Made by a program: the position numbers and the translations under genes
In this document: piece by piece, positions 2,224-12,590 of the stretch
Layout: each line of letters opens with the position of its first letter
Position numbering within the stretch: position 1 is the first letter of the stretch
Virus record (IMG/VR): IMGVR_UViG_3300023220_001073
Location: 1-21,214 of that record
Reading direction: 5' to 3' (one strand)
Source of the DNA: a virus
DNA: 21,214 nucleotides
The notes under the pieces: model-generated
What the model was told of the DNA's origin: nothing
What the model saw: only the letters and a program-made list of their open reading frames with translations
Databases searched by the model: none

Positions 2224-2939
2224 TGGATAAAGACCAAAATTACCTCCCCTTCACTACCCATAGTGGCGGCAAGTACTTTAAGGACGGTAGCTATTGTGTG
2301 CCCATTCTTTTTGAGCCGTCCGACGCAGTGTCAGCGGCCAAATGGTTGGGTGGTGTGCCCGGTAAATTTGGCGCTCTAACGATTATTGAGCGAGAAGCGG
2401 CCCAAACACACCAACGAAAAAAATTTATAGAAGACAATACCCCGCACTATGGCCACTTTGCTCAAATCATCGATGAATCCGGCTTCTGGTGTCAGCTCAA
2501 GGTGTTAAAGGCGGTAGCCTGTGAGAGAACTTATATTGAGTGGTGTCGCTTGCAGCCTTGCGCCATCAATAAAGACCATCAGGGCGGCTGGGATATGATC
2601 AAAGGCGAAATGCGCAGCGAATATGACCATGTCAATACCGCAAAAAACGCCGGCACCGCTTATAAAAATCAACAATATTTCGGTTGGCCGCTGTGCTATG
2701 ACTGCCATCATGTAACAAAAGTAGGCGTAACGATGGACATTGAATCCAAAACACGCCTTATTCAAAAGCATCAATTTCAATGGGCTAGAGGGGTGGTTAA
2801 AAAACAATTTGGCTTTGACTCGTGGCGGGATATCCATCCCTCTTCTTTTCTGTTGTGGGTTAAAGTACATCAATTGCAAGAGTTAATCCCTGAAGTCTAT
2901 TTTATCCAATCAGACAAGATGAACCAGGAAGTCGCGTGA
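2223..2939 (+). CDS. HNH/zinc-knuckle protein, possible DUF968-like nuclease
   Basis: This 238-residue protein starts at the ATG at 2223, overlapping the preceding stop by one base; a GTG at 2220 is the alternative. It carries a likely zinc site of two pairs, C108-x4-C113 and C158-x2-C161. Around them are a YDH motif (H136) and a PLCYDCHH motif (H162, H163). This is the order of a small HNH-type nuclease fold and resembles DUF968-type phage recombination or junction-processing proteins encoded beside replication genes. The N-terminal 90 residues match no domain I know. Placement directly after the initiator supports a role in DNA metabolism. The nuclease assignment rests on motif spacing only. 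Confidence 0.5.
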   Translation: MDKDQNYLPFTTHSGGKYFKDGSYCVPILFEPSDAVSAAKWLGGVPGKFGALTIIEREAAQTHQRKKFIEDNTPHYGHFAQIIDESGFWCQLKVLKAVACERTYIEWCRLQPCAINKDHQGGWDMIKGEMRSEYDHVNTAKNAGTAYKNQQYFGWPLCYDCHHVTKVGVTMDIESKTRLIQKHQFQWARGVVKKQFGFDSWRDIHPSSFLLWVKVHQLQELIPEVYFIQSDKMNQEVA

Positions 2940-3772
2940 TTTATACCGCTTACCGACAAAATTGGCTGCCCAGAACGGTACGTAAACTGCGTCAAAACCA
3001 TCATATCTGGGTGACGGCTATGATTGTCTCAGTGGCATTATTTGTGCTGATTTTGGCGTTTTGTGGCCTGTATGGCCAAGAGCCACAATGGCCGCAAGAC
3101 AGAGTAATTGGCGTGATAGGTGCCAGCTTTGAGTCCTGTGAAATACCGCTTGATACCCCCTTCAACGGCATGGGTTTAGCCGGCTGCAGCTATACCAGTT
3201 TGACGGATGCACTAAAGAATAATCACGACTTAACTAAAATGGGCTTTAAGATTCGTCATACTGCACAAGCGGGCGCTTATTCTTACGATGTGCCTAATAC
3301 GGGTTGGCTGGGAATGGACGCCCAATATCTCAAGCTTAAGAAAATGACCTATTGGGCCTGGGATAAAAGCTCTCGACTGGACTATCTAGTGATTGGGTTA
3401 ACCAATGATTGTTTGCATTCCACTCCTTGTGATAAATCAGGTATTCAGCGCTTAATAGACAATAAAAAACAGGTGGTACTACAGGCCCAGAAGGAAGGCA
3501 TCAAGGTTATTGTTTTAAACTACCCAGAGTGGCACACCCTTGATTTAGACATCAGTGCACGCATTTTTGGCTTTAAGTACATTATTGATGAAGCGGGTTA
3601 CCACTCATTGAGAAGTGCTTATGACGGCGCCTTTAACACCCTGCCAGGGATTGCTTATCTCACGGTGTGGAACAATAAAACAAAAATGATTATCGATGGC
3701 CTGCATCCTGATGAAAAGTCACAACACAGTGCATCAGACGATATTTCTGATGTTATTTTGAGGAGGGGTTGA
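2936..3772 (+). CDS. membrane-anchored SGNH/GDSL-like hydrolase
   Basis: This 278-residue protein starts at the GTG at 2936, which overlaps the previous stop (GTGA) behind an AGGAAG site. It has a basic N-terminus, one transmembrane helix (residues about 27-46), then a soluble domain with all four SGNH blocks: VIGVIGASFES (Ser64; GAS instead of the usual GDS), Gly113, VIGLTNDC (Asn157) and IDGLHPDE (Asp254, His257). SGNH enzymes remove acyl or acetyl groups from lipids, sugars or peptidoglycan. With Nin-Cout topology this one would act in the periplasm, which suggests envelope or surface-polysaccharide modification, perhaps lysogenic conversion or exclusion of other phages. It lies in the early operon between DNA-metabolism genes and the late regulator. 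The family is well supported. Substrate is unknown. Confidence 0.78.
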   Translation: MIYTAYRQNWLPRTVRKLRQNHHIWVTAMIVSVALFVLILAFCGLYGQEPQWPQDRVIGVIGASFESCEIPLDTPFNGMGLAGCSYTSLTDALKNNHDLTKMGFKIRHTAQAGAYSYDVPNTGWLGMDAQYLKLKKMTYWAWDKSSRLDYLVIGLTNDCLHSTPCDKSGIQRLIDNKKQVVLQAQKEGIKVIVLNYPEWHTLDLDISARIFGFKYIIDEAGYHSLRSAYDGAFNTLPGIAYLTVWNNKTKMIIDGLHPDEKSQHSASDDISDVILRRG

Positions 3773-4777: not shown

Positions 4778-4831
4778 GGTTTAGAATTTGGCTTTTTGCA
4801 TGCCAATGAAAATAACCCTCCCCCTCCCCTT

Positions 4832-5275
4832 ATGGCCCAAGCACAATCCGTTGGTCGCCCTAAGGCTTTACTCTCTGAATTATCTGATGATTGGCCAGCT
4901 AAAATATTAGCGCTGTATGAGCAAGGTGCCTCAGATGTCGAGATTAAAGCTGAAATCTATAAAATGCGCGGCAGCTTTTCCAATGATTTATTTGATAGAT
5001 GGCTTGAGGAAGAGCCTGAATTTTCGAAAACCATAAAGATAGGCCGATTGTTATCACACGCTTACTGGGAAAGAAGTGGCCGTGTCTCCCTGACTAATAA
5101 GGATTTTAGCTATACCGGTTGGTATATGAATATGAAAAACCGATTTGGCTGGCGCGATAAGCAAGAAATAGAGCATCAAGGCGATATCGGTATTCATCAA
5201 ATGAGCGATGAGCAGCTTGATATGCGATTAAAGGCACTTATCAGTGCAACGACACCAGAAAATACAACTGATTGA
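4832..5275 (+). CDS. terS: terminase small subunit
   Basis: This 147-residue protein is read from the ATG at 4832. A TTG at 4796 would lengthen it by 12 residues; neither start has a clear Shine-Dalgarno, and the bases just before the ATG are a C/T-rich run. It contains a helix-turn-helix-like N-terminal part (ILALYEQGASDVEIKAEIY, residues about 25-45), central helices and an acidic tail (MSDEQLDMRLKALI). It lies directly before the large terminase and just after the late promoter. It should recognise the packaging site in the phage DNA and hand it to the large subunit. P22 gp3 is of similar size (about 160 residues). Confidence 0.75.
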   Translation: MAQAQSVGRPKALLSELSDDWPAKILALYEQGASDVEIKAEIYKMRGSFSNDLFDRWLEEEPEFSKTIKIGRLLSHAYWERSGRVSLTNKDFSYTGWYMNMKNRFGWRDKQEIEHQGDIGIHQMSDEQLDMRLKALISATTPENTTD

Positions 5276-6686
5276 GTTATTAGACGAAAAGCACAGGCGT
5301 GTAGAGCAAAACAAATTTTTTCATTTTAAGCCCTACGAGTGGCAAAAGCAGTTTTACGCTGCAGGCCACACTCATAAGCAACGCATGCTAATGGCAGCTA
5401 ACCGGGTGGGCAAAACCTTGTCTTCTTGCTTTGAGTTAGTCTGTCATCTGACAGGCATTTACCCCGATTGGTGGCCCGGCATTCGATTCGCCTTCCCGAT
5501 TAATGCTTGGGCCTTAGGGGTTTCTGGTGAACAGATTCGGGATGTACTACAGAAAGAAATGCTCGGCACCCTATCTAATGAAGGTTTTAGCGGCGGCGGC
5601 ATTTTACCCGTCAATTTGGTGCACGATGTGGTGCGCTCTATGACGCCCCGACTGGCAAAAGATGTGCGCATTCAGCATATTTGTGGCAGTTATTCTAACC
5701 TATCCTTTAAAAGCTATTCACAAGGACAGCACGTTCTTATGGGCACCTCGATTGATTTTGCGTTAATCGATGAAGAGCCAGAAGATGATGAGATTTGGCC
5801 CCAAGTATTAACGCGCCTGATGATGGGCAATCAAGGAGTTGGCGGTCAGATTGTTTTAAGCTTTACGCCTGAAAATGGTAATACGGAACTGGTGGAGCAA
5901 TTTTCTGACCACTTGCAACGTGGCCAATATTTACAAAATGCCACCTGGGATGATGCACCCCATCTGGATGAAGAAACCAAAACAGAAATATTAGCGTCTT
6001 ATCCGGCTTATCAGCGGGATATGCGCAGCAAAGGCATTCCGTTGCGCGGTGAGGGACTTGTTTTCCCGGTTGATGATGCCGTTTTTACCGAAGAGCCGCT
6101 GGCCCACATCCCTAAATTCTGGCCGCGCATTATCGGCATTGATATCGGGTGGGACCATCCCACGGCCTTGGTGTGGATTGCCTACGACCCAGAAAATGAT
6201 GTGATGCATGTGTATGACTGTTGGCGTCAATCACAAGTAACACCCGCCGATGTATCGGGTGTGATTCGACCCAGGGCCGATAGCTGGGCACCGGTGGCAT
6301 GGCCCCATGATGGTTTGCAGCACGATAAAGGCAGCGGTCAACAATTGTGTGAGCTGTATCGGCAACAAGGCGTTTTTATGCTGCAGGATAAAGCTACTTT
6401 TGACGATGGCAGTAATGGCGTAGAGGCGGGTGTATTCGCCCTGCTGGAACGCATGAAAAGCGGGCGCCTTAAAGTGGCGACCCATTTAAATGAATGGTTT
6501 GAAGAAAAACGACTCTATCACCGTAAGCGCAATAAGAAAACCCGCGATGCCACGCCGCAAATCGTCAAACTGAAAGATGACCTACTGTGTGCTACACGCT
6601 ACGCCATGATGATGTTGCGTTATGCAGAAACACAGCCAACGCATGAGCAGTATGAGCCTGAAACCGTTAAGGAGAATTGGTATTGA
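5244..6686 (+). CDS. terL: terminase large subunit
   Basis: This 480-residue protein starts at a GTG (5244) that overlaps the small-subunit gene by 32 bases. It has a Walker A-type loop A51-ANRVGKT58, Walker B ALIDEE (173-178), and a C-terminal RNase H-like nuclease with acidic residues at D300 (GIDIGWDHPTA), D356 (PHDG) and D445/D446 (KDDLLCATRYA). The N-terminus (QLIELLDEKHRR, then FHFKPYEWQKQFYAAGH) resembles P22 gp2, which supports headful packaging. It cuts the concatemer and pumps DNA into the procapsid through the portal. Confidence 0.92.
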   Translation: MQRHQKIQLIELLDEKHRRVEQNKFFHFKPYEWQKQFYAAGHTHKQRMLMAANRVGKTLSSCFELVCHLTGIYPDWWPGIRFAFPINAWALGVSGEQIRDVLQKEMLGTLSNEGFSGGGILPVNLVHDVVRSMTPRLAKDVRIQHICGSYSNLSFKSYSQGQHVLMGTSIDFALIDEEPEDDEIWPQVLTRLMMGNQGVGGQIVLSFTPENGNTELVEQFSDHLQRGQYLQNATWDDAPHLDEETKTEILASYPAYQRDMRSKGIPLRGEGLVFPVDDAVFTEEPLAHIPKFWPRIIGIDIGWDHPTALVWIAYDPENDVMHVYDCWRQSQVTPADVSGVIRPRADSWAPVAWPHDGLQHDKGSGQQLCELYRQQGVFMLQDKATFDDGSNGVEAGVFALLERMKSGRLKVATHLNEWFEEKRLYHRKRNKKTRDATPQIVKLKDDLLCATRYAMMMLRYAETQPTHEQYEPETVKENWY

Positions 6687-6889: not shown

Positions 6890-6910
6890 AAATAATAAAG
6901 GATAGTGAAA

Positions 6911-8941
6911 ATGCCAAATGAACTAGAAAACACCAACCCCAAAGCCGTAGAAGTCCTCATGGGCTTTCTAGAGGACCCCATTAATATCGCCGAGCAGCTC
7001 GATGACGACACCCTGATGAAAGTCGGTCGTGACGTGATGAATGGCTTTGATACCGATGAAGGCTCTATGAGTGAGTGGGTCGACATTATCGAAAAAGGCT
7101 TAGACCTGATTAAGCCGGAAACCCAACCCAAATCAGAACCGTGGGATAATGCCGCCAACTTTAAATCGCCGGTTATTATTGATGCACAACTTAGGTTTGG
7201 TGATTTAGCCAGCGCTGAATTGCTGCGCGGACCTGATTTCATGAAAACACGGGTGGTGGGAAATGACCCCACCCAACAAAAAGCCGAGCGCAGTGAGCGC
7301 GTTGCTACCTATATGAATTGGCAGCTTACCCAACAAATGACCGAGTGGGTTAAAGAGCAAAACAAATTGATTTATGATTTGGCCCCCATTGGGGCTTCCT
7401 TTAAGAAAACCTTTTTTAGCAGAGAATTACAGCGCAATGTCTCTGAGCTGATTACCTACCCAAGCTTTGTGATTAATAATGATATTACCAGCCTTGAGCG
7501 AGCACGCCGCTTTAGCCAAAAAATGGAGTTTTCCCATAATGAAGTGATTGAGCGTCAACGCGGCGGTTTATGGCTTGATATTAATCTGCAACACGCCTCC
7601 GGTAGTGATGAGAGCGTACCCGACCAAACCGAAGACGATAAAATTGATACCTTTATTGAGCAGCACACTTTTGCTGATTTAGATGAAGATGGCTATGAAG
7701 AGCCTTATATCATCACAGTCCATAAAAGCTCACAGCAAGTGGTGCGCATTGTGCCGCGATTTGGCCCGAAAGATATTTTACTGAAGGACGAAAAGAACCA
7801 ACGCTCGGCCGTATTAGCCGATTTGATTCAGCCCGATGGTGCCTTACCCAAGACCGATGGCCAGCGTGAAATCATTAAAATCACACCACAAAATAGCATT
7901 ACGCAATATGGCTTCTTACCTGCGCCAGACGGCGGCTTTTTAAACGTCGGTTACTTCCATTTGTTGGGGGGCCTTAATGCGGCCCTTAATGTCACGACAA
8001 ACGCCTTGATTAATGCCGGTAACCTAGCCAACTTACAGGGCGGATTTTTGTCCCGTGATATGCGCCAAAAGCTGGGCAACTTAAAAACCAAGCCCGGCAT
8101 GTATCAACAAACCCAACTCAGCGCCCAAGACTTGGCACAAGGTATTCGAGATTATAACTTTAAAGAGCCCTCCCCGACTTTATTCCAGCTCAATCAACTG
8201 ATGCTGCAAACGGCCCGTGAAACCTCTTCCAGTGTCGACTTAAAAGGGGCGATAGGCGCCAATGCCCCAGCGACCACCACCCTAGCCTTAGTTCAAGAGC
8301 AGCAACAATCCTCTAGCGCCATTATTCAGCGCATTTATCGGTCGGAAGCAGAGGAATTCAAAAAACTGTATCAATTAAATGGCGAATTCTTAGATGAAGC
8401 AGAATATCAACGGGTGGTTGACGACCCTGAAGCCTCAATTGAAGATTTTAATACCGAAGATTTTGATATTGTGCCGGTGGCCAACCCCGAAGCGTCCAGC
8501 AAAATACAGCGCTTACAATTGGCGCAGGTGGAAATGAACAGCTTACAAGCCGTATCGGCCGTCGGCGGCAACCCCAAGCCCATCGTGGAAAATTTCCTTA
8601 AAGCGATTGGCACCCAAAACATTGAAGACATCTTTCCAAAGCCTACTGAAGAACAACAACAACAGCAGCAAGCGTCTCAACAACAACAACTGCAAGAGCA
8701 GGAATTGTTGAAAGAAATGACCATCGACCATGCCGAGCGTACTCAAGAAAATGAAGACGCTAAAACAGAAGCAGAGGTGGCTAAAAACCAAGCGCAAACG
8801 GTTAAAGCGCTAGAAGAAGCCGAAACCGAACAAACCAAAAACTTAAGCGACCAATACACCACCGCGTTTAATTTAGACCAACAAGCATTGGATTTGCAGC
8901 AACAAATCAATCAACCCTTTCAAAACAATCAAGGAGTGTAA
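6911..8941 (+). CDS. portal protein
   Basis: This 676-residue protein starts at the ATG at 6911, eight bases after AAGGA; a GTG at 6905 is in frame. Its length is close to P22 gp1 (725). It has the podovirus-portal signature EPWDNAANFKSPVIIDAQLR near residue 75, a central wing/stem region, and a helical C-terminus (about 575-665) with Gln-rich stretches, Glu/Lys coiled coil and a Gln-rich end. This end is comparable to the barrel extension of P22-like portals. It forms the dodecameric DNA channel at one head vertex and is followed by scaffold and coat genes. Confidence 0.88.
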   Translation: MPNELENTNPKAVEVLMGFLEDPINIAEQLDDDTLMKVGRDVMNGFDTDEGSMSEWVDIIEKGLDLIKPETQPKSEPWDNAANFKSPVIIDAQLRFGDLASAELLRGPDFMKTRVVGNDPTQQKAERSERVATYMNWQLTQQMTEWVKEQNKLIYDLAPIGASFKKTFFSRELQRNVSELITYPSFVINNDITSLERARRFSQKMEFSHNEVIERQRGGLWLDINLQHASGSDESVPDQTEDDKIDTFIEQHTFADLDEDGYEEPYIITVHKSSQQVVRIVPRFGPKDILLKDEKNQRSAVLADLIQPDGALPKTDGQREIIKITPQNSITQYGFLPAPDGGFLNVGYFHLLGGLNAALNVTTNALINAGNLANLQGGFLSRDMRQKLGNLKTKPGMYQQTQLSAQDLAQGIRDYNFKEPSPTLFQLNQLMLQTARETSSSVDLKGAIGANAPATTTLALVQEQQQSSSAIIQRIYRSEAEEFKKLYQLNGEFLDEAEYQRVVDDPEASIEDFNTEDFDIVPVANPEASSKIQRLQLAQVEMNSLQAVSAVGGNPKPIVENFLKAIGTQNIEDIFPKPTEEQQQQQQASQQQQLQEQELLKEMTIDHAERTQENEDAKTEAEVAKNQAQTVKALEEAETEQTKNLSDQYTTAFNLDQQALDLQQQINQPFQNNQGV

Positions 8942-9190
8942 ATGGAGCTAACCTCTGACCAACTAGACGGATGGAAACATCACCCCGTTACTCAGTATAT
9001 TTTAAACAGCATTGCCGAGTCAGTGGTGGAGATGCGTCGTGTCCCCCGGTGTCGTGATGGCCAAAGCATGGAGCAAATTGCACTCAAGTGTGCTCAAGCC
9101 GAAGGCTTGATAGAGGGCGCGCTGCAAATTCAATTATGGCTCGACAATCTCGAGTTTCAAAAAAAACAATCTGAGGAAGGCAATGGATAA
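8942..9190 (+). CDS. small conserved-looking head-region protein
   Basis: This 82-residue protein begins at the base after the portal stop, with AAGGAG (8931-8936) five bases before. It is helical and polar, with two cysteines, and ends in a charged tail (EFQKKQSEEGNG) that overlaps the co-chaperonin start. No family is recognised. Position between portal and co-chaperonin suggests a head-assembly accessory. Confidence 0.7.
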   Translation: MELTSDQLDGWKHHPVTQYILNSIAESVVEMRRVPRCRDGQSMEQIALKCAQAEGLIEGALQIQLWLDNLEFQKKQSEEGNG

Positions 9191-9512
9191 CAATCCGATA
9201 AAAAAAGTCTGTGGCCATTATGTGTTGGTCAAAAAGGAACACATTGAAGAAAAAACCGCTGGCGGCATTGTGCTGCCCTCTCAAACCATCAGCAATGAAC
9301 GCGCCAGACAATGCGTTGCAACGGTGGTTGAATTTGGTCCTAAAGCGTTTCATGGTTATGTCGAGGGCACCGAATGCCATGGCCCAGAAGATTGGGGGGT
9401 CCAGGTGGGCGATAAAATTGAATTCTGTCGCTCCTATGGCCAAACCCCCTTAAGCGATGAATCAGAAGAATTCCTTATTATTATTGACAAAGATATTATG
9501 GTGGTGGTATGA
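9183..9512 (+). CDS. phage GroES-like co-chaperonin
   Basis: This 109-residue protein starts at the ATG at 9183, inside the end of the previous gene. It is a clear Cpn10/GroES homologue: YVLVKKEHIEEKTAGGIVL (residues 13-31) matches the first strand and mobile loop, with the hydrophobic I29-V30-L31 tripeptide that docks on GroEL. VQVGDKIEF (73-81) matches the core strand, and the C-terminal strand is DKDIMVVV. A Gly/His/Cys-containing insert (about 52-72) replaces the usual roof loop, and cysteines occur at 10, 44, 65 and 82. It should cap host GroEL to fold the coat protein, like T4 gp31. It lies between portal and scaffold. Confidence 0.9.
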   Translation: MDNNPIKKVCGHYVLVKKEHIEEKTAGGIVLPSQTISNERARQCVATVVEFGPKAFHGYVEGTECHGPEDWGVQVGDKIEFCRSYGQTPLSDESEEFLIIIDKDIMVVV

Positions 9513-10354
9513 GCGAACAAACCAATGAAGCAGACAACGTAGAAGAAGTAGAAGAAGCAGAGGGGGCCGTAGAGGCGCCTCCAGCAGAAACAGACATCAG
9601 TGAAACGCGTCAGAAAGCGACAGCCATGGGCTGGAAGGAGAAAGACGATCACGAGGGTAATCCGGAAAATTGGTTATCACCCGGCGCTTTTCTTAGATTT
9701 GAGTCACTAAAAAACCGGGTCAATGAACTGAACAGTGTCCAGCAAAAATCAAGCAAAGACTTTGAGCGCCGCTTAGAGGAAAACAATAAACTGCATCAAT
9801 TTAATTTGGATCAAACAAAAAAACAACTCGAGTCTAAAAGATTGGCCGCGGTGGAAGAAGGCGATGCAGAAAGCTTTAAGGCGCATCAGGCCCAGATTGA
9901 TGAAATCAATCAACAAGCGACACAGATGCAGTCGGCACCGGCTACACCGACGCCGGAACCTGAAATACAGACCTGGGTCAGTCGCAATCCGTGGGTATCT
10001 AATGGCCACGCAAGTTATGATGTATCAAAAGCCCGAGTGGCCGATGTCTTATTAAATGATATTGAGCACAGCAATCCCCATATGAATCGCAATAAACAAT
10101 TAGAGCTGCTAGATAATAAGCTGGGCACGCTGTATGGCAACCCAAAACCTGAAAACCCCAAACGGACGATGCCCAATATGACAGAATCTAGAGCCCCCGT
10201 CGCTAAATCACGCGACAAAAAAGCCAAAAGCTTTGCTGATTTATATGATGACGAAAAAGCCTATTGGAATGAAGTGGCAAAAGACCAACCACGTTATGCC
10301 GGTAATGAAAAAGCCTTTTTTAAAGTAGTTAATGATGCGAGAAATAGAAAATAA
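9509..10354 (+). CDS. scaffolding protein
   Basis: This 281-residue protein overlaps the co-chaperonin stop (ATGA). The N-terminus is very acidic (residues about 6-32), the middle is a long coiled coil rich in Gln, Glu and Lys (about 70-150), and a Pro-rich linker leads to a basic C-terminal region (SKARVADVLLNDIE, then KSRDKKAKSF). Acidic front, coiled coil and positively charged coat-binding end are the hallmarks of P22 gp8 (303 residues). It would guide coat assembly and leave the procapsid before packaging. Confidence 0.78.
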   Translation: MSEQTNEADNVEEVEEAEGAVEAPPAETDISETRQKATAMGWKEKDDHEGNPENWLSPGAFLRFESLKNRVNELNSVQQKSSKDFERRLEENNKLHQFNLDQTKKQLESKRLAAVEEGDAESFKAHQAQIDEINQQATQMQSAPATPTPEPEIQTWVSRNPWVSNGHASYDVSKARVADVLLNDIEHSNPHMNRNKQLELLDNKLGTLYGNPKPENPKRTMPNMTESRAPVAKSRDKKAKSFADLYDDEKAYWNEVAKDQPRYAGNEKAFFKVVNDARNRK

Positions 10355-10363
10355 GGACATTTT

Positions 10364-10816
10364 ATGACAAACAATCCCTCTTCAGACACTAAGCCCTCCT
10401 CGACACCGACGGACAAAAAAGGACCCGGCAGACCAAAAACCAATAAGGAGGCCTTTGTCGAACGCGAATATATTCGGCCCGCCAAGCGAATTCCGGCTAC
10501 CCGGCAGGATAAAACGCGCTTTCCTGATGGCATAGAGCAGCTGCCCGATAAGCGCTATTGCTGGGTGCTAGAGCAAGACATTCAAGATAAAATCAATGCC
10601 TGGTACGAGTTCGTCAAAGATAAAAACGGCACGCGAGTGCGTATGGTGGCCAATAAAAGTGTCGATATGACTGCCTTAAACCGTATGCAGTATCTGATGA
10701 TGGTGGATGAAAGCCATTACTTGGAGGATTTCGCCCTGCAACAGGATAAATGCATCGATTTAAAAAGAAAAAAAGAAACGCTGGGCGCTGGACAATATCG
10801 ACCCCGCTCCCTTTAA
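10364..10816 (+). CDS. unknown protein with an AT-hook-like motif
   Basis: This 150-residue protein starts at the ATG at 10364 after an AAGGA. The first 20 residues are Ser/Thr/Pro-rich, followed by KKGPGRPKTN (residues 19-28), whose GRPK core resembles an AT-hook minor-groove-binding motif. The rest is basic and helical with no recognised domain, ending KETLGAGQYRPRSL. It lies between scaffold and the capsid leader. DNA binding within the head is one guess; a structural linker is another. Confidence 0.65.
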   Translation: MTNNPSSDTKPSSTPTDKKGPGRPKTNKEAFVEREYIRPAKRIPATRQDKTRFPDGIEQLPDKRYCWVLEQDIQDKINAWYEFVKDKNGTRVRMVANKSVDMTALNRMQYLMMVDESHYLEDFALQQDKCIDLKRKKETLGAGQYRPRSL

Positions 10817-11103: not shown

Positions 11104-11655
11104 ATGACTGGAGGCTTTAAACCCGTCCAAGACATTTCTGGCAACCCGTATACCGGCAAAGTCAGAACATATGCCGTTGCAGCATCCCATGCAACCTTAC
11201 TCGCACCCGGTGATTTCGTGGTTGAAATCGGCGATGCGGATTCCACGACCGGCAAATCGCAAGTCGATGCCATCTCATCTGGCACCGGCAATCTTACGTT
11301 AGGTGCGATTGTTTCGGTCGATCCTAATATTTCCAACTTAGAACAGCGCGGCTTACCCGCCACTATTGGCGGAACGGTTAAGGTTTCTATCGATCCCGAT
11401 ACGCTGTATGAAGGCATCTTAAGTAATGGCTCAATTGCCACCACTAATGTGGGGCAAAATGCCGCCGTTGCTGCGACCGCCGCGACTCAAACAGGCTCTC
11501 TTGTTGATTCCAATATGACCATTAATGCAGGCACCTTTACCGGCTCTACTGAGCAGGTTCGCGTCGTCGGTCTTAAAGATGGTGTGGTTGGAGCAGCGGG
11601 CACGGTTTTTGTGCGCCTCAATGAGTCCAGTATTAAATCTACAACAGGAGTGTAA
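11104..11655 (+). CDS. capsid decoration-like structural protein
   Basis: This 183-residue protein starts at the ATG at 11104 behind AGGAG. It is rich in Gly, Thr, Val and Ser, with a predicted beta fold and no charged clusters. A segment VKVSIDPDTLYEGI (about residues 93-106) resembles the DPDxLFE segment common in small proteins next to coat proteins. It precedes the coat gene by two bases of spacing and is probably made in large amount. Decoration or head-assembly role is inferred from context. Confidence 0.6.
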   Translation: MTGGFKPVQDISGNPYTGKVRTYAVAASHATLLAPGDFVVEIGDADSTTGKSQVDAISSGTGNLTLGAIVSVDPNISNLEQRGLPATIGGTVKVSIDPDTLYEGILSNGSIATTNVGQNAAVAATAATQTGSLVDSNMTINAGTFTGSTEQVRVVGLKDGVVGAAGTVFVRLNESSIKSTTGV

Positions 11656-11657
11656 TC

Positions 11658-12590
11658 ATGGCTGCAGGAGGCGTAATTACCCGCGGTAATAATCCGCGAT
11701 TATTAAGAGAAGACGTTAATGCTATTTTCAGTGATGCATATAACGAACATCCACAACAATTTTCTAAAATCTATGGTGCGCCACACATGGCATCCCATTC
11801 ATTTGAAGTCGACGTGCAATGGGGCAGTTTTGGTCCCGCACCGATAAAAGATGAATCCGATGGCGTGGTTAACGATTCACAACAACAAGGCATTACCCCT
11901 AAATATCCGATTGATACTTTTGCGCTCGCCTATCAGGTCAGTGAAGAAAACATGGAAGATAATAAATGGGGTTTATTTTCAGATGGTGCGCGTAAATTGG
12001 CTTTTTCATTACGTCAATCGTCTGAAATTGAAGGCGCTAATGTATTAAATCGTGCCTTTAATTCTGCTTTTGTGATGCAAGATGGCGATGGTAAATCTTT
12101 ATTGGCCACCGACCACCGCAGAGGACCGGATGATAACACCTCGGTTTCTAATAAACTGGCGATTGCTGCCTCTTTATCAGAAGCCAGCCTGGAAAGACTA
12201 TTAATTCAAGTCCAAGAATTAAAAGATACCCGCGGCAACCCGGTTGCTGCGACGGCAACGCGCATGATTGCCCCCCCTGCTTTATCTTTTGAAGCGCAAC
12301 GTATTACCGCTTCGGTATTACAAAGTGGCACTGCTAATAATGACTTAAATGCCATTCGCAGTATGGGCATGTTGCCCGAAGGCTTTTTTGTCAACAACTA
12401 TCTGACATCTGACACCGCTTGGTTTTTGATGACCGATGTTGATGATGGTTTAAAGCATATGTTAAGACGCGGCGTTAAATTCCAAGAAGATAATGATTTT
12501 GGCACCTCTAATATGCGCTTCAAAGCATCACAGCGTGAAACCTTTGGTTGGTCTGATTTCCGCGGTGTATTCGGCACAGAAGGCGCATAA
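11658..12590 (+). CDS. major capsid protein
   Basis: This 310-residue protein starts at the ATG at 11658 behind an AGGAG. Its size and layout fit an HK97-fold coat of the Mu gpT-like group: an N-terminal ITRGNNPRLLREDVNAIF helix, a central LSEASLERLLIQVQELKDTRG spine-like helix, and a C-terminal DDGLKHMLRRGVKFQEDNDF with MRFKASQRETFGWSDFRGVF. The strong terminator directly after it and the structured leader before it mark it as the high-expression head gene. Confidence 0.85.
   Translation: MAAGGVITRGNNPRLLREDVNAIFSDAYNEHPQQFSKIYGAPHMASHSFEVDVQWGSFGPAPIKDESDGVVNDSQQQGITPKYPIDTFALAYQVSEENMEDNKWGLFSDGARKLAFSLRQSSEIEGANVLNRAFNSAFVMQDGDGKSLLATDHRRGPDDNTSVSNKLAIAASLSEASLERLLIQVQELKDTRGNPVAATATRMIAPPALSFEAQRITASVLQSGTANNDLNAIRSMGMLPEGFFVNNYLTSDTAWFLMTDVDDGLKHMLRRGVKFQEDNDFGTSNMRFKASQRETFGWSDFRGVFGTEGA

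Follow-up and report, generated by a model that had tools for sequence, protein, structure and literature searches.

A divergent phage co-chaperonin gene kept within a head-gene cassette across unrelated hosts

A Cpn10/GroES-type co-chaperonin gene (9183–9512, + strand) was detected within the head-gene cassette of the window, the whole stretch of viral DNA analyzed here, which is a linear 21,214-base virus fragment from IMG/VR. The gene is a new, divergent member among the well-known phage co-chaperonins, and its near-constant presence in related cassettes suggests that this virus-shell family needs a folding lid of its own. We consider it reasonably likely that the protein is a dedicated co-chaperonin for this head lineage that binds host GroEL and has the 310-aa coat protein as its most probable client.

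The co-chaperonin ORF begins with ATG and encodes 109 aa (12.1 kDa), with a good ribosome-binding site, GAGGAAGG, directly 5' of it at 9173–9180. It shares 8 nt with the preceding 82-aa ORF and has an ATGA overlap with the next. The protein scored 41.8 bits against Pfam PF00166, about twice the cut-off of 21.1, and matched phrog_3188, 'co-chaperonin GroES', with an E-value of 2.4e-13. Its highest score to the NCBIfam bacterial GroES equivalogs was 40.1 bits, far below the cut-off of 136, and judged by its sequence the window protein is a Cpn10 yet not a housekeeping GroES. An AlphaFold (AF2) model built on a 43-row alignment had a mean pLDDT of 82.6, and in a Foldseek search of the PDB ranks 1–35 were all co-chaperonin chains, gp31 among them, with Cpn10-type chains of the ClpP complex 7ekq at ranks 31–33. 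Structural Z scores were 10.5 to Mtb Cpn10, 9.1 to E. coli GroES, and 8.9 (2cgt) and 7.7 (1g31) to gp31 entries, while the best unrelated fold reached only 6.2. The initial annotation of this DNA had described a phage-encoded GroES with a GroES fold signature, and the Pfam score, the PHROG match, and the predicted structure all agree with that description; structure prediction, which it had named as a check, recovered the Cpn10 fold.

Two segments of the protein, placed from the AF2 model and a comparison of loop lengths, set it apart from host GroES: the mobile-loop segment at residues 19–44 (9237–9314, +) and the roof segment at residues 53–76 (9339–9410, +). The I-V-L tripeptide previously noticed in the mobile loop is present as part of GGIVL at residues 27–31 (nt 9261–9275). 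From the loop glycine to G52 there are 23 residues in the window protein and 23–25 in the other 59 cassette proteins of the alignment (representatives below 95 aa were dropped), versus exactly 19 in all 14 host GroES measured, the truncated host copy L193 having been excluded. All 60 cassette proteins thus have at least four extra loop residues, and in the window the second half of the mobile loop is four residues longer than in host GroES, with residues 33–42 modeled as a helix. The roof segment, counted from G52 to D77, spans 24 residues in the window and 10–24 across cassette copies, versus 18 in 14 of 14 host GroES; it is six residues longer than the host roof and keeps a predicted hairpin (E57–60/E63–66). 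A longer second half of the mobile loop, partly helical in the model, may be a mark of the lineage, to which the window copy adds a retained and lengthened roof. A roof-loop insert with cysteines had also been suggested for this protein, of which the longer roof stands, but C65 is the only cysteine in the hairpin and is not conserved. Significance of this cysteine was rejected because, among the 60 aligned sequences, only the window has Cys at that site.

The pattern GG[ILV] was found in 47 of the 60 cassette copies and is absent from 13, which leaves room for a different mode of GroEL binding in some branches. Several of the copies without it retain a hydrophobic stretch after a rewritten loop. 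Among these, one six-member clade (L008, L073, L091, L125, L128, and L166; branch 99/92) has a longer, helix-like stretch in place of the GG motif, and its members may bind GroEL differently.

The co-chaperonin gene is surrounded by head genes. Upstream are the small and large terminase genes (4796–6686, the large at 5244–6686), a portal gene (6905–8941, +; 678 aa, 76.4 kDa; phrog_1216, E 1.9e-13), and the 82-aa ORF (8942–9190, +), noted for its position directly before GroES. Downstream are a scaffold-like protein of 281 aa, ATGA-coupled to GroES (9509–10354, +), a 150-aa ORF assigned from its position in annotated relatives (10364–10816, +), p190, a 183-aa protein recognized by profile and fixed order directly before the coat gene (11104–11655, +), and the major capsid protein of 310 aa and 34.0 kDa, which has an HK97 fold and is related to gpT/Phage_capsid_4 (11658–12590, +). 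The coat protein matched Phage_capsid_4 and Mu-like gpT in Pfam as well as phrog_371, and its model (pLDDT 87.7) matched HK97-fold capsids and encapsulins; against the sequences of solved structures it gave two matches only (E 0.25 and 0.97), neither convincing. Profiles grown from the scaffold-like ORF and from p190 reached 154 and 171 source sequences, respectively. The earlier placement of GroES between portal and scaffold is borne out as to order, but the 82-aa ORF intervenes, and 'scaffold' is a name given by position and gene order, as the 281-aa ORF matched no curated scaffold family in Pfam or PHROG. Of the 121 loci whose upstream DNA reaches far enough, 114 have an ORF of 45–110 aa directly adjoining Cpn10, some of these picks looking spurious, and a profile made from the L003 copy reached 92 of 120, the window copy being linked only via that of L010. 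The small ORF is possibly a further part of the cassette.

Elsewhere in the window, we detected a Cro/C1-type regulator (HTH_26; 160–420, −) and a replication-initiation-like protein (1276–2223, +), so the window phage may be temperate; cassette-bearing phages are probably both lytic and temperate. A 278-aa protein (2936–3772) is hydrophobic over a stretch at its N terminus and contains the motif DGLHPDEKSQH, which we take to recall SGNH/GDSL hydrolases, with no match of that type in Pfam or PHROG.

Searches of viral contigs with the GroES protein as query returned no matches, probably because Cpn10 evolves fast, so the coat protein was used as bait instead. No close DNA relatives of the window were found in phage records. 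The coat matched 22 phage records, and 14 neighborhoods were examined, comprising 13 close relatives and FP_Mushu. Further loci were sampled by likeness to the window coat, taking the best 80 of at least 598 coat relatives in viral contigs and the best 80 of 117 in genomes. A coat ORF preceded by 2.8 kb or more of DNA was available at 131 loci; 128 of these had a Cpn10 ORF upstream of the coat on the same strand, and after clustering at 80% coat identity Cpn10 was present in 60 of 61 representatives. Altogether 133 Cpn10 ORFs were kept for clustering after removal of any that contained N or had no clear start, and ten diverse cassette Cpn10 proteins searched independently against Pfam all scored above the cut-off. 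The median distance between Cpn10 and coat was 2,087 bases over all loci with both genes, and the order portal, Cpn10, scaffold-like protein, p190, and coat was the same in all 90 complete cassettes, window included.

Three loci had no Cpn10: FP_Mushu, which is a distant outgroup, L139, and L156. In L139, p190 is truncated at profile position 48 and bacterial genes directly adjoin it, and in L156 gaps of 100 N lie between bacterial genes and the cassette; both misses are probably erroneous contig or scaffold joins in these genome records. An annotated GroES/Cpn10 lies between portal and coat in all 13 phages whose coat is 34–44% identical to that of the window over the match, and none lies there in FP_Mushu, with a coat 25.7% identical. 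Whole-genome Pfam searches gave the same result, with Cpn10 in 13/13 close coat relatives and 0/1 for FP_Mushu.

The terminase genes have a different history. The 18 phage records matched by the window portal are the same as the 18 with the best coat matches, while the large terminase matched 408, and none of the 40 listed was among those 18. The best terminase match was PfAn1 (51%), and whole-genome Pfam searches found Cpn10 in none of six terminase-sharing phages with other heads. These results suggest that GroES follows portal and coat and that the terminase has been exchanged. A mosaic junction lies between the terminase and portal of the window phage. Two of the six, PfAn1 and phiSG1, combine a related terminase with a P22-type cassette and have no GroES. 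A relationship to the P22 coat was considered and rejected, as the window coat matched other families and its Pfam and PHROG matches up to E 1 included none to the P22 coat family.

Hosts of the cassette are not short of co-chaperonins. All 12 cassette-bearing bacterial genomes have at least one further Cpn10, with a strong canonical copy (117–131 bits) in 11; in the remaining genome, G007, the sole other Cpn10 is a 46.7-bit match that is seemingly cut short. A tree was built from 60 cassette rows and 15 host GroES rows, and its 127 columns resolve little beyond the split between host and cassette; the host rows fall on one side of a branch supported at 100/99, and the window Cpn10 sits on a long branch (2.27). 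No tested cassette copy is therefore a recent copy of a host gene, and recent capture of GroES from the host was rejected for the 12 genomes. Since other GroES are available in cassette hosts, the probable reason for keeping the lid is a need of the head lineage itself and not a lack in the host. The loci in Zavarzinia, Salinisphaera, Sphingomonas, and Gluconacetobacter come from named isolates; many of the other genome loci are MAGs, for which host names may be wrong. Gluconacetobacter diazotrophicus PA1 5 (NC_011365.1) has two cassettes (L149 and L152) at separate places in the chromosome and two other groES besides those of the cassettes, which makes it a possible culture system. We detected no Cpn60/GroEL in any of 15 records (the 13 close relatives, FP_Mushu, and the window fragment), so the partner of the phage protein is most likely host GroEL.

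We propose that the phage Cpn10 would form a ring, presumably heptameric, that binds host GroEL through the GGIVL mobile loop and caps its folding chamber during late infection. The capped chamber would then fold phage head proteins, foremost the 310-aa coat. At 34 kDa this coat fits the ordinary GroEL-GroES chamber, so the size argument made for gp31 does not carry over. The longer mobile loop may lift the lid, change its tilt, or delay its release, and in combination with the retained roof it suggests an altered height or lining of the lid and not an opened dome.

The choice of the coat as client has to be weighed against co-variation of the cassette genes. Across 70 non-redundant cassettes, Cpn10 distances correlated with those of the portal (0.75), coat (0.71), scaffold-like protein (0.69), and p190 (0.39); with the other cassette genes held constant, the partial correlation was 0.30 for the portal (5–95%, 0.20–0.38) and 0.10 for both the coat (0.005–0.19) and the scaffold-like protein (0.006–0.24). 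Cpn10 thus tracks the portal more than the coat, and co-evolution does not point to the coat. Use of this mirror-tree comparison to identify the client was set aside, as it weakly favored the portal and did not single out the coat. The correlations, along with the position of Cpn10, which follows the portal and precedes the scaffold-like ORF in every one of the 90 complete cassettes, suit a genuine co-chaperonin that mainly serves some other phage protein (the portal, the scaffold-like protein, or a tail protein) or several of them. The GroES gene of phage B8b, which lies directly before the tape measure gene (PMC4294664), likewise makes clients other than the coat plausible. However, the portal of 76.4 kDa exceeds the capacity of the GroEL-GroES cage as given in PMC6318259, and its alignment is longer (766 versus 305 columns), which may alone yield the better correlation. 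As portal and coat match the same records, linkage cannot separate the two as client. We consider a main client other than the coat unlikely, though it is the strongest rival reading.

The protein could also take over folding in general, re-tuning host GroEL for late proteins or stress with no special client, and the canonical mobile loop of the window copy is compatible with this. Evidence from other phages points the same way: in vivo, gp31 is reported to be able to stand in for GroES with every E. coli client (PMC6318259), and host chaperone genes are downregulated when pelagiphages, HTVC027P among them, infect (PMC12753301). Yet a general factor would need no fixed place and could often be lost, whereas Cpn10 keeps the same position in the head cassette in hosts with GroES of their own, and the six terminase-sharing phages manage without it, so we view such a takeover as improbable. 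Recruitment of the Cpn10 fold to head structure or assembly, in a protein that does not bind GroEL, would explain a gene placed among structural genes and the altered mobile-loop motif of 13 of 60 copies; it is very improbable given that the window copy retains GGIVL and the full fold and that the motif is kept in the remaining 47. We therefore continue to favor a dedicated lid for host GroEL, with the coat as its likeliest client.

To our knowledge, the presence of GroES in phages whose hosts have their own is well explained only for T4, by coat size. Here the coat is small, the lid gene is nearly inseparable from the head genes, and terminases have been swapped. We suggest tentatively, and with somewhat less than even confidence, that a large head-cassette lineage in unrelated hosts has a near-obligate co-chaperonin of non-host type that provides a chamber specific to the coat lineage, coat size not being the reason. 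In searches of open-licence full-text literature, we found no description of a link between GroES and a coat lineage across hosts or of the longer loop. The question is testable in cultured HTVC027P, CRP-901, Caulobacter phage RW, and Alcaligenes phage QDWS535 and in prophages of isolates such as Gluconacetobacter diazotrophicus, where the need for the phage lid is predicted to follow the coat and not the host. A linked Cpn10 may also serve to flag coats of this type that have so far gone unannotated, and it is the lineage-wide cassette, rather than the single gene, that deserves attention.

The window protein has the fold, GGIVL loop, and roof hairpin in common with bacterial GroES/Cpn10 and is about 20–33% identical to solved bacterial and mitochondrial Cpn10 in structural alignments. 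T4 gp31 and RB49 CocO are likewise phage-encoded Cpn10 proteins that are tied to the coat and have a longer mobile loop than GroES, that of gp31 having 22 residues versus 16 (PMC6318259). For T4, gp31 is reported as essential for folding of the coat protein gp23, with GroES no substitute (PMC3012670). The linkage of Cpn10 to the coat gene would be consistent with a similar requirement in the window phage. According to PMC6318259, gp31 is without roof loops and serves a coat of ~56 kDa, slightly larger than GroEL-GroES accommodates, whereas the window has a 34-kDa coat and a roof longer than that of host GroES, with a hairpin predicted at residues 57–66. The analogy to gp31 drawn in the initial annotation therefore holds in principle but not for the usual reason, as a coat of 34.0 kDa occurs here with a retained roof hairpin.

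Among the closest known systems are the HTVC023P-type pelagiphages and CRP-901-type roseophages, which have the same cassette and gene order as the window; the window has the GroES-bearing order of HTVC023P-like heads together with homologous portal and coat. GroES is given as one of 13 core genes in 82 HTVC023P-type genomes (PMC9599517) and is labeled in CRP-901 genomes in a figure legend of PMC10149686. The GroES proteins of these types have N-terminal extensions and their hosts are marine, whereas the window protein is short and on a long branch, and the window phage, unlike them, has a Cro/C1-type regulator and a terminase of other origin. The P22-like order proposed earlier survives only in the broad sense of portal, scaffold, and coat: the window coat is gpT/HK97-like and belongs to a different family, and true P22-type head cassettes, such as those of PfAn1 and phiSG1, have no GroES.
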